From contig JAUNDG010000020.1 of the NCBI GenBank assembly GCA_030526195.1, positions 1 to 43,629 of the forward strand: a stretch of 43,629 bases of DNA, read 5' to 3'. The first letter of the stretch is position 1; every line of letters begins with the position of its first letter. The notes beneath the pieces are model-generated. The model saw only the letters and a program-made list of their open reading frames with translations. It ran no database searches and was not told the DNA's origin. Origin of the DNA: Lachnospiraceae bacterium. Lineage in GTDB: Bacteria > Bacillota > Clostridia > Lachnospirales > Lachnospiraceae. The translations under genes and the position numbers were made by a program. Shown here in pieces: positions 37,982 to 41,542 of the stretch.

Positions 37982-38010
37982 TTGATTTGCCCTGTCAGAA
38001 TTGGTACAAT
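37982..38010 (+). promoter_or_regulatory. Sigma-A type promoter, distal
   Basis: TTGATT (37982-37987), 17-bp spacer, TACAAT (38005-38010). It would give a leader of about 165 nt to the Hpt gene. Confidence 0.6.
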
Positions 38011-38077
38011 AGAAAGAGCATAAACAGACATTTGACAATTTCGCTTGTCATCTGATAGTTGTGGATAAGCATTTCTC

Positions 38078-38107
38078 TTGATTTGTCAAGGGGGGGGGTA
38101 ATATAAT
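38078..38107 (+). promoter_or_regulatory. Sigma-A type promoter with G9 tract in the spacer
   Basis: TTGATT (38078-38083), 18-bp spacer, TATAAT (38102-38107). The spacer includes nine consecutive G's (38090-38098). Losing one G would give the optimal 17 bp; gaining would weaken it. This is the standard structure of a phase-variable promoter. The start lies about 65 bp before the Hpt ATG. Confidence 0.7.
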
Positions 38108-38180: not shown

Positions 38181-38546
38181 ATGACAATTCAGGAATGTTA
38201 TCAGGAACTTGGCGGTAGTTATGAAGAAGTGGCAAAGCGCCTTCCCAGCGCTGCGCTGATCAAAAAGTTTATCTCCAAATTCCCGAACGATGACAGCTTC
38301 AATCAGCTTAAGCAGGCCATGGCCGACGGTAAGGCTGAGGAAGCCTTCCGGGCAGCCCACACACTGAAGGGTGTCTGCGGTAACCTGAATTTCGACACAC
38401 TGGGTCATTCCACATCCATTCTGACAGAAGTTCTGCGCGCCGCAGGTGATGTGATGCCGGCAGAGGCACCGGATCTGTTTGTGGCAGTTGAAAGCGACTA
38501 TGCTCAGACCGTGAAAGCCATCGAAACATTTTTGGCTGAAGGCTGA
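38181..38546 (+). CDS. Stand-alone Hpt (histidine phosphotransfer) protein
   Basis: 121 residues of helical sequence with AHTLKGVCGNLNF, the Hpt signature whose His accepts phosphate from a receiver domain. The upstream 30 residues and C-terminal helix fit a four-helix bundle. GAGAGGG precedes the ATG, with 9 bp. Followed by a terminator, so it is monocistronic, but the multi-domain REC protein next door is the natural partner. Its promoter region seems switchable. Confidence 0.92.
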   Translation: MTIQECYQELGGSYEEVAKRLPSAALIKKFISKFPNDDSFNQLKQAMADGKAEEAFRAAHTLKGVCGNLNFDTLGHSTSILTEVLRAAGDVMPAEAPDLFVAVESDYAQTVKAIETFLAEG

Positions 38547-38584: not shown

Positions 38585-38619
38585 GGCAGGCGGGAGTCTA
38601 ACTTCCGCCTGCCTTTTTT
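38585..38619 (+). terminator. Strong intrinsic terminator after Hpt
   Basis: Stem 38585-38595 with 38603-38613 (one G-T pair), 7-nt loop, six T's. Confidence 0.93.
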
Positions 38620-38867
38620 CTTTGGGTTCATCATGCGCGCCTTATCGGATGTATTCATTTGGCGCATGGCTGTTTTATGAATTGATAAATAATTTCTGTC
38701 GGCAAGGAAAAGTATTTCCATGAGAAATGGTGTTTTTCGTGCCATGGTGTTGACACTTGCCTGAAAATGGGCGATATTTAATAGTGTGAACAACTATCCC
38801 TATAGGACAATTGTCTGAATTGTCGGCTGATTCAAGAAAATGAGTTTCAGCCGTTATTTTGGACTTT

Positions 38868-38923: not shown

Positions 38924-41542
38924 ATGCCGTTTCGTAGAACGATCTTGATCGTTGAAGACAATGAACTGAATCGCGAGCTGCTGGCCGCTATCCTGGATGA
39001 GGAATATGACATCCTGGAAGCGGAGAACGGGCAGGTGGCTTTGGATATTCTGGCAGAGCATAAGGACCGTGTGTCTTTGATCCTCCTGGATGTGATGATG
39101 CCTGTTATGGATGGTTTCACCTTCCTTGACAGGATGAAGCAGAATCCGGAGATGGACCAGATCCCGGTCATCGTCACCACACAGAGTAACAGTGAGGCTG
39201 ACGAGCTGGCCGCGCTGAATCACGGCGCCACCGATTTCGTACCCAAGCCCTATCGCCCGCAGGTTATTCTCCATCGAGTTGCTGCTCTCATTAAACTCAG
39301 AGAGACAGCCAGCATGGTCACCGTGCTGCAGAACGATCGTCTCACCGGCCTCTACACAAAGGAATTCTTCCTTGAGAAGGTGCGGGAGCGGCTGCGTCTG
39401 GAGCCGGAAGGGGAATTTGCTCTTGTCTGCACCAATATTGAACGCTTTAAGCTGGTGAATGACCTTTTCGGTGTCGAAGCCGGCGATAACCTCCTGCGGG
39501 AAGTGGCCGCCCTCACCATGGAACAGGTCGGGGATGGCGGTTTCTGCGGCCGTCTGAACGGGGATCGCTTCATCATTTTCATGAATGCGGAAGCGGAACG
39601 TCAGGCGCGGGCCAGACTTCAGGAGACCATTGATCATGTCCGTCAGAACATCGAGGAGAGCCACGACCAGGGCTCTTTGATGAGAAATATGGTGATGCGC
39701 TGGGGCATTTACCCGATCCACGATCGGACCGTGCCCATTGAGCAGATGTGCGACCGGGCGGTGCTGGCCGTGGACAGTGTGCGGAATCAGTATCAGCAGC
39801 CCTTCGCCATTTACGACGATTCCATGCGGTCTCGTCTCTTGCGTGAGCAGGAGATCACCGCTGTTATGGAACAGGGCATCCGCGAAAAACAGTTTAAGGT
39901 TTATTTGCAGCCCAAGTGTGACATCCGCAACAATCGCATGGGCGGGGCCGAAGCGCTGGTCCGCTGGATCCATCCGGAATGGGGCTTCATGTCACCGGGC
40001 GAGTTTATTCCGTTATTTGAAAAAAATGGGTTTATCAGCAAGCTGGACAGCTATGTCTGGGAAGAGGTCTGCATCAAGCTTCAGGAATGGAAGCAGCAGG
40101 GCCTGCCGGCGTTGCCGATTTCCGTTAACGTTTCCCGGGCCGATGTGTTCCAGGGTAATCTCGTCGAGACCCTGAGCGGACTCATCAAAAAGTATGACGT
40201 GGATCCGGCCTATCTCCACCTGGAGATCACGGAAAGCGCCTACACCGAGAACCCGGATTTGATTGTGGATTGTGTCAATCAGCTTCAGAAAATGGGTTTC
40301 GTCATCGAAATGGACGACTTCGGCAACGGCTATTCTTCTTTGAATATGCTCAGCCGTATGTCTCTTGACGTCCTGAAGCTGGATATGTCCTTCGTTCAGA
40401 GTGAGGTGGCCAAGCCTGTCAGCCAGAGCTTCCTCAATCACATCATCAGCATGGCTCACCAGATTCACCTCACCGTTGTGGCGGAGGGTGTGGAAACCCG
40501 CGAGCAGATGAAGCGCCTCAAGGATGAAGGCTGCGACCTCATCCAGGGTTACTTCTATGCCAGACCCATGCCGGTGGCTGAATTCGAGAACATGCTCCGT
40601 GAGTTTGATCCTCAGGAAAATGAGTCATCCGCTGACGAAACTTATTGCGATACCATGTGGAACGCGATCCTCGTGGTGGATGAGGATGCCGATTATCGGA
40701 AGTCTGTGAAGGAAACCTTCACCACCTGGTATCGGGTTGTGGAAACAACGACCGCCGAAGAAGCCATCCATTTCCTGAAGACGTTCGGCCGGAATAATAC
40801 CGCCGCCGTGATCTTAAGCACCGGCCTGCCCGATGACGGGGCAGCGCAGGTTCTGAAATATCTTCAGAGCACAACGGCTCTTTGGAATCTGCCGGTTCTG
40901 GCCACGATTCCGCTTAATCAGTGTGCCGATAAAAATGAACTGGTTTACGATGCGGATGATTTCCTCTGTAAGAACCATCCGTTATTCGATCTTTACAGAC
41001 GTGTGCAGCGCATGGTGAATGTGGCATCCTTCCGTCAGAGAGAATTTGCCCTTCAGGCTGAGGCCTGCCGGGATCCGCTGACAGGGTTGCTCAATCGTCG
41101 CGGTCTGCAGAATGCCATGAACAGCCTGCGCCCCAGCAATATGCCGGTGGCGGTATGCCTCTTTGACCTGGATGATCTTAAGAAGGTCAACGATGAGGGC
41201 GGCCATGACATGGGTGACCGGATGCTTCAGAGCTTTGCGGAGATGCTTCAGCAGATGACCCGCGCGGATGATATCAAGTGCCGTTACGGCGGCGATGAAT
41301 TCGTGGCGATCCTGAAGCACATCCCCAACGAGGAAGCCGCCAAAGCCAAGGGCGAGCTGATCTGTCGCAGCTTCCGCGAAAGTGCGGCCAAGTGCGGCAT
41401 GGAGGTGGCCTGCTCTGTGGGTATTGCCCTTTCCAAAGTGGATCGTCCCATCGGCGAGGAAATGATCGAGCACGCCGACAAGGCCCTTTATGAAGCCAAG
41501 CGCGAGAATAAAGGTGGCTGCTGTCTGTGGGAAGAGGCCTGA
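38924..41542 (+). CDS. REC-GGDEF-EAL-REC-GGDEF c-di-GMP hybrid regulator
   Basis: 872 residues from the ATG at 38924 (GGAAGGA upstream). REC1 (~4-125): VEDNELNRE, LILLDVMMPVMDG with acceptor Asp, KPYRP. GGDEF1 (~137-290) is degenerate: RLNGDRF in place of the catalytic motif. EAL (~315-560) appears intact: EALVRW, NVS, EITES, DDFGNGYSSL, KLD, AEGVET, GYFYARP. REC2 (~578-700) is degenerate: the acceptor position in VILSTGLP is Ser. GGDEF2 (~715-870) is intact: RYGGDEF, preceded by FDLDDLKKVND. So it combines a probable cyclase and a probable phosphodiesterase, making and degrading c-di-GMP, with one working receiver. The Hpt gene just upstream likely feeds REC1. Monocistronic between two terminators. 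Confidence 0.93.
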   Translation: MPFRRTILIVEDNELNRELLAAILDEEYDILEAENGQVALDILAEHKDRVSLILLDVMMPVMDGFTFLDRMKQNPEMDQIPVIVTTQSNSEADELAALNHGATDFVPKPYRPQVILHRVAALIKLRETASMVTVLQNDRLTGLYTKEFFLEKVRERLRLEPEGEFALVCTNIERFKLVNDLFGVEAGDNLLREVAALTMEQVGDGGFCGRLNGDRFIIFMNAEAERQARARLQETIDHVRQNIEESHDQGSLMRNMVMRWGIYPIHDRTVPIEQMCDRAVLAVDSVRNQYQQPFAIYDDSMRSRLLREQEITAVMEQGIREKQFKVYLQPKCDIRNNRMGGAEALVRWIHPEWGFMSPGEFIPLFEKNGFISKLDSYVWEEVCIKLQEWKQQGLPALPISVNVSRADVFQGNLVETLSGLIKKYDVDPAYLHLEITESAYTENPDLIVDCVNQLQKMGFVIEMDDFGNGYSSLNMLSRMSLDVLKLDMSFVQSEVAKPVSQSFLNHIISMAHQIHLTVVAEGVETREQMKRLKDEGCDLIQGYFYARPMPVAEFENMLREFDPQENESSADETYCDTMWNAILVVDEDADYRKSVKETFTTWYRVVETTTAEEAIHFLKTFGRNNTAAVILSTGLPDDGAAQVLKYLQSTTALWNLPVLATIPLNQCADKNELVYDADDFLCKNHPLFDLYRRVQRMVNVASFRQREFALQAEACRDPLTGLLNRRGLQNAMNSLRPSNMPVAVCLFDLDDLKKVNDEGGHDMGDRMLQSFAEMLQQMTRADDIKCRYGGDEFVAILKHIPNEEAAKAKGELICRSFRESAAKCGMEVACSVGIALSKVDRPIGEEMIEHADKALYEAKRENKGGCCLWEEA

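Follow-up and report, generated by a model that had tools for sequence, protein, structure and literature searches.

A nine-G promoter spacer ahead of an Hpt gene in a Lachnospiraceae bacterium: a probable slippage promoter within an order-wide class

An Hpt gene in a stretch of Lachnospiraceae DNA of 43,629 nucleotides (the window, meaning that whole stretch) is preceded by a predicted promoter, P2, with nine consecutive G's in its spacer. P2 is probably a slippage promoter of the Neisseria meningitidis porA type, at which a change in the number of G's could alter expression. The reading we prefer, at a probability of roughly 0.55, is that P2 serves the Hpt gene as a sigma-A-type promoter with a slippage-prone G9 tract, that the Hpt level varies in a graded manner, and that the site is a member of an order-wide class of promoters with poly-G spacers. 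This order-wide class is a larger finding than the window site itself.

Direct reading of the forward strand, together with a promoter scan, placed the -35 hexamer of P2 (TTGATT) at 38078..38083, followed by an 18-bp spacer (38084-38101) and the -10 hexamer TATAAT (38102..38107), 73 bp ahead of the Hpt ATG. This agreed with the earlier note, which had described TTGATT, an 18-bp spacer with nine G's and TATAAT at 38078-38107. The proposed slippage tract, GGGGGGGGG, lies within the spacer at 38090..38098 on the same strand and ends 3 bp short of the -10. The arrangement that marks the porA type, poly-G between -35 and -10, was thus found at P2. The scan scored P2 at 10 of 12 consensus matches; its description as near-consensus held for the -10, which is perfect, and not for the -35, which matches at 4/6 positions. 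The count of nine G's is the assembled length from one genome and might be off by one. No second genome of the species was found in the Hpt homologue search, the 42 genomes of the genus or the viral contigs.

The distal promoter that the same note had placed at 37982-38010, here P1, was present on the forward strand (TTGATT, 17 bp, TACAAT, with a TG before the -10; 9/12 in the promoter scan), and from there to the Hpt gene the scan of the locus found nothing resembling a terminator. The promoter scan also listed a middle promoter-like site with a weak -10 (TTGACA, 16 bp, GATAGT; 38032..38059, +). Two inverted repeats were read in the forward strand beside P2, TGACAA-N6-TTGTCA at 38033..38050 (fold z -2.1) and CTTGA-TTTG-TCAAG at 38077..38090 (fold z -3.8); both have TTGTCA/TGACAA-like halves, and the second overlaps the -35 and spans it together with the first G of the tract. 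They are a possible operator, or chance. Behind the Hpt gene, the scan found a strong intrinsic terminator of 13 pairs, 9 of them G-C, with a T tail (38585..38613, +), and a promoter-like site belonging to the next gene (TTGACA-17-GATATT; 38750..38778, +). No Rfam family was found in the window at the gathering threshold.

The promoter scan yielded six promoter-like sites in 1.7 kb, compared with 2.6 (sd 1.6) in shuffles, so a single promoter match alone weighs little. One alternative is therefore that the P2 match is unused, with P1 or the middle site as the sole start of transcription and the G9 in the 5' leader. It draws on this abundance of sites, on the imperfect -35 and on the plausibility of P1, and also on the Hpt homologues, since a similar rule found no promoter-like site in the upstream stretch of 11 out of 57. 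We consider this alternative improbable, because the TATAAT of P2 is perfect and close to the gene and because good promoters stand at like distances ahead of some homologues, namely TTGACA-17-TATAAT at 73 bp (L183), TAGACT-17-TATAAT at 77 bp (L184) and TTGTCA-17-TATAAT at 65 bp (L045). P2 is presumably active as a promoter of the Hpt gene.

The Hpt gene (38181..38546, +) encodes a product of 121 aa with one domain, which matched PF01627 of Pfam at 39 bits (E 9.8e-10), above the curated cut-off of 24.6. We take the phosphorylatable histidine to be the one in the HTLKG motif, here His60 (codon 38358-38360). The product is cytosolic and fails a crude signal-peptide test. Further downstream lies a gene for a response regulator that carries GGDEF and EAL domains by Pfam (38924..41542, +; 872 aa from the ATG). 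In 3 of the 28 loci compared (L037, L039 and L041), Hpt adjoined a REC-GGDEF-EAL protein (54-61% identity), which makes the two likely partners and the REC-GGDEF-EAL protein the likely c-di-GMP partner of Hpt; phosphotransfer would run from Hpt to this neighbour. At L039, the second gene of the pair is split over two overlapping frames. The proposal that switching of the Hpt gene would toggle a global signalling state was unsupported, because P1 can read through and the terminator at 38585-38613 divides Hpt from the c-di-GMP regulator. With this terminator and a separate promoter-like site further downstream, the tract would affect Hpt alone, on top of P1 transcription, and with P1 upstream and no terminator-like site before the gene, tuning is predicted and not on/off control.

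None of the 57 Hpt homologues read (L002-L012, L031-L047 and L180-L208; the weaker homologues L013-L030 were excluded) had a G run above 5 upstream of the gene, over up to 250 bp where the contig allowed, so the G9 is particular to this lineage on what was read. Loci exist for 29 of the 58 Hpt matches outside the own genome, and the named homologues come from Clostridia, Oscillospiraceae included, and many are MAGs. A DNA search of the 42 genus genomes gave no match to the P2 promoter DNA outside its own genome; 17 of these genomes, the own one among them, matched, but in the others the match was confined to the YbjQ gene or to short stretches of Hpt. Plasmids gave no match to the locus, and viral contigs contained neither a relative of it nor a match to the class pattern given below.

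Long G runs are strongly avoided in this genome. The 2.54-Mb assembly (43 contigs) contains six G/C runs of at least 8, compared with about 74 expected under independent bases, and a 200-kb sample of it had no G or C run above 6. Besides the window G9, these are a G11 and a G8 that share a gene on contig C39, and one G8 each on C7, C16 and C40; the G9 is second in length only to the G11. In the 200-kb sample, 0.36% of intergenic 9-base slots, and 0.09% of all 9-base slots, fall inside a promoter-like spacer of P2 quality, figures to be read with the fact that the G9 site had been picked for its looks by an earlier reader. The avoidance of G runs and the 0.36% chance of such a placement together indicate that the tract and its position are hardly mere background. 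MutS is present in the genome, and MutS loss was rejected as the cause of the long tracts.

These results bear on a second alternative, in which P2 is an ordinary promoter whose G run is a product of drift in this lineage and slips at a low rate, switching is not selected and P1 gives most of the Hpt. The lack of the tract in 57/57 homologues agrees with such a history, as do the TG before the -10 of P1 with no terminator ahead of Hpt, the cytosolic product and the presence of MutS. However, the G9 is placed exactly in a promoter spacer in a genome that avoids long G runs, and poly-G spacers occur in the order far above controls, as described below. We regard origin by drift as possible but rather unlikely, and retain the slippage promoter as the preferred reading.

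We searched 392 genomes of the order with the pattern TTGA-N3..11-G8-N0..7-TANAAT, and obtained 57 distinct sites in 43 genomes, the window site included (58 match rows, one site being listed twice). The proportion of 43/392 is a lower bound, as the pattern limits the non-G part of the spacer to 9 bp. The reversed pattern gave 2 matches in the 392 genomes; a control with C8 for G8 gave 8 sites in 7/392 genomes, and 3 when reversed. The G run abuts the -10 in 39 of the 57 sites, and a gap of 3 bp occurs in 7, including the window site. The commonest form, with the G run abutting the -10 and a TTGACA-like -35 (at least 5/6), accounts for 36/57 sites and does not include the window site. Within these 36 tight sites, the number of G's was 8-11 and the spacer 13-20 bp with a mode of 18, a range that is what the pattern permits, and within the same permitted scope half of them (18/36) have the usual spacer of 16-18 bp. 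One genome of the order (G183) carries three poly-G spacer promoters (L137 with G9, L159 with G11 and L160 with G10), each ahead of a secreted-looking protein. G081 likewise has three sites.

For the phylum, a stricter pattern requiring TTGACA and TATAAT was used in 398 genomes; it matched in 2 of them, and in none when reversed. By our mapping, 18 of the 57 order sites, in 16/392 genomes, match this stricter pattern (Fisher 6e-4 vs the phylum), the order count being taken from the sites of the looser scan; the window site does not match it. The class is therefore concentrated in the order (16/392 against 2/398 genomes). A phylum-wide spread of the class was rejected, with the stricter pattern in just 2/398 genomes.

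The first gene behind the tract looked secreted at 31/51 sites, compared with 19/140 genes from the sample of the window's own genome (Fisher 4e-10) and 2/26 genes upstream of the tracts (Fisher 6e-6), by a crude rule of hydrophobicity and cleavage motif that was the same for sites and controls. The window site was excluded from this count, and 5 of the 57 sites were dropped as having no gene call. Site genes were called from the first start that had a Shine-Dalgarno-like word and was followed by 60 aa or an open end, and are in this respect slightly unlike the control genes, which were complete and of at least 100 aa. A secreted downstream gene is the commonest case and not a universal one; the Hpt of the window fails the rule, like 20/51 others. 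The non-secreted minority includes LytTR regulators and a diguanylate cyclase, assigned by Pfam, and a methyl-accepting chemotaxis protein, a flagellin and ABC transporter ATPases, named by eye. The diguanylate cyclase (L138, genome G384) and the by-eye chemotaxis receptor (L167, genome G081) each stand behind a poly-G spacer promoter.

We aligned seven groups of related promoters of the class, and the differences in G number found there are between species, not inside a population. In the LytTR pair L121/L122 (82% aa identity), the sole gap in 252 aligned columns was of 2 G, with G11 in one and G9 in the other. In the GDSL pair L118/L119 (90% identity), the sole gap through the promoter was also of 2 G, with more gaps in the leader. 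A G-only difference was thus seen in 2/7 promoter groups. Two further groups, L113/L152 and L111/L151, are each two copies within one genome; the G8 was the same and the one-base gap was a T beside or before the run. L120 and L153 both had G9, and the groups L129/L136 and L174/L175, as well as L154, were diverged beyond judging. The LytTR orthologues occur in 3 of the 9 genomes of genus g135. L121 (G185) has its G11 in a 20-bp spacer and L122 (G193) its G9 in an 18-bp spacer, and the third orthologue (G223) has an interrupted tract, GGGAAAGGG, in an 18-bp spacer, which suggests that such tracts can be lost or replaced while the spacing is held. The G223 LytTR gene matches in two pieces.

These alignments are also relevant to a third alternative, in which the G tract is a fixed element with no slippage, either an operator for a regulator that reads G tracts or a means of tuning the promoter through DNA shape. 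The abutment of G run and -10 in 39/57 sites, the inverted repeats beside the G9 and the equal G number in three compared groups would fit a fixed element. Against it, the tight set varies in both G number (8-11) and spacer length (13-20), and a difference of 2 G separates the members of two orthologous pairs; we consider it very improbable.

In the preferred reading, a change from G9 to G8 would give P2 the optimal 17-bp spacer and more transcription, and a change from G9 to G10 would give a 19-bp spacer and less. Cells would then differ in Hpt level in a graded manner, on top of P1 transcription, and P2 would belong to an order-wide poly-G set found mostly at secreted-protein genes, with a minority of signalling genes (LytTR regulators, a diguanylate cyclase and Hpt). 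Since P1 can read through and MutS is present, graded and slow variation of Hpt would be expected, not an on/off toggle. The earlier idea that slippage shifts the spacer and with it expression stands as the best reading of the tract, in that poly-G spacers recur in the order and the number of G's differs within two orthologous pairs; the Hpt homologues that have no tract tell against it. P1, the cytosolic product, the 4/6 -35, the 3-bp gap and MutS weaken the explanation further. Judging from the sequence, we infer that the G9 may slip and thereby affect the Hpt level.

A second long tract of this genome, a G8 on the minus strand of contig C16 (8845-8852; L049 1501-1508; L213), precedes a c-di-GMP-I riboswitch (L049 1362-1445, 61.6 bits) by 55 bases. 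The riboswitch is followed by a frame that stays open for at least 1379 aa and begins like a signal peptide; by eye it is a large surface protein. Reading by eye found TTGACT and TAAGAT 21 bp apart at this G8; the scan listed no promoter across the tract and only weaker sites elsewhere. Two long G tracts of the genome thus precede c-di-GMP-linked genes, which may be coincidence with so few tracts. The G11 and G8 of contig C39 (122506-122516 and 122690-122697; L055 1498-1508 and 1682-1689) lie inside a gene named by eye as PAPS-reductase-like, the frame of which seems to change near them, and are a possible slippage tract in a coding region.

A wider proposal, which we hold only tentatively and think unlikely as a whole, is that poly-G spacer promoters are a widespread and unreported phase-variation system of the order that in some lineages was recruited upstream of c-di-GMP signalling. 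Of the tracts in this genome, one would tune Hpt and another lies before the riboswitch and surface-protein gene, so that a single surface programme would be subject to both random switching and c-di-GMP control. The poly-G promoter design of host-adapted pathogens recurs in 43/392 genomes of this Clostridia-like order, mostly where the next gene encodes a secreted protein, and may act there to switch expression at random. If the switching is true, clonal populations of such bacteria would be mixtures in surface make-up, cells of the window species would also be mixed in phosphorelay capacity, and single-genome representatives would capture just one state.

Host-adapted pathogens, Neisseria and Treponema among them, are known to switch promoters through homopolymers, and cwpV and flgB of Clostridioides difficile vary by DNA inversion, not by homopolymer slippage. 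Two reports describe phase-variable expression of these two genes, and hence in Clostridia too (PMC2784873, PMC5386303). Among the matches listed in the open-access literature, a scope outside which most subscription papers and all bioRxiv preprints fall, there was no report of poly-G spacer promoters in this order. The closest likeness to P2 is N. meningitidis porA, where poly-G lies between -35 and -10 and the number of G's sets expression: relative to G11, surface expression is 2-fold lower with G10 and 13-fold lower with G9, and in a mutS mutant the frequency of switching rises about 1000-fold (PMC3639595). In contrast to porA, which is an outer membrane protein with proven variation, P2 serves a cytosolic Hpt, has a second promoter upstream and is known from sequence alone. 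The tp0126 promoter of Treponema pallidum likewise has poly-G between -35 and -10 and transcribes best at 17-bp spacing, but it serves an OmpW-like outer membrane protein in a spirochaete (PMC7864442). The same source places poly-G of varying length in the promoters of T. pallidum tprL and tprE/G/J; unlike in P2, the tprL tract overlaps part of the -10 and does not lie in the spacer, and a porA-like mechanism is stated there to be ruled out for tprL (PMC7864442). The mechanism is thus already known, and the P2 site is probably a new member.
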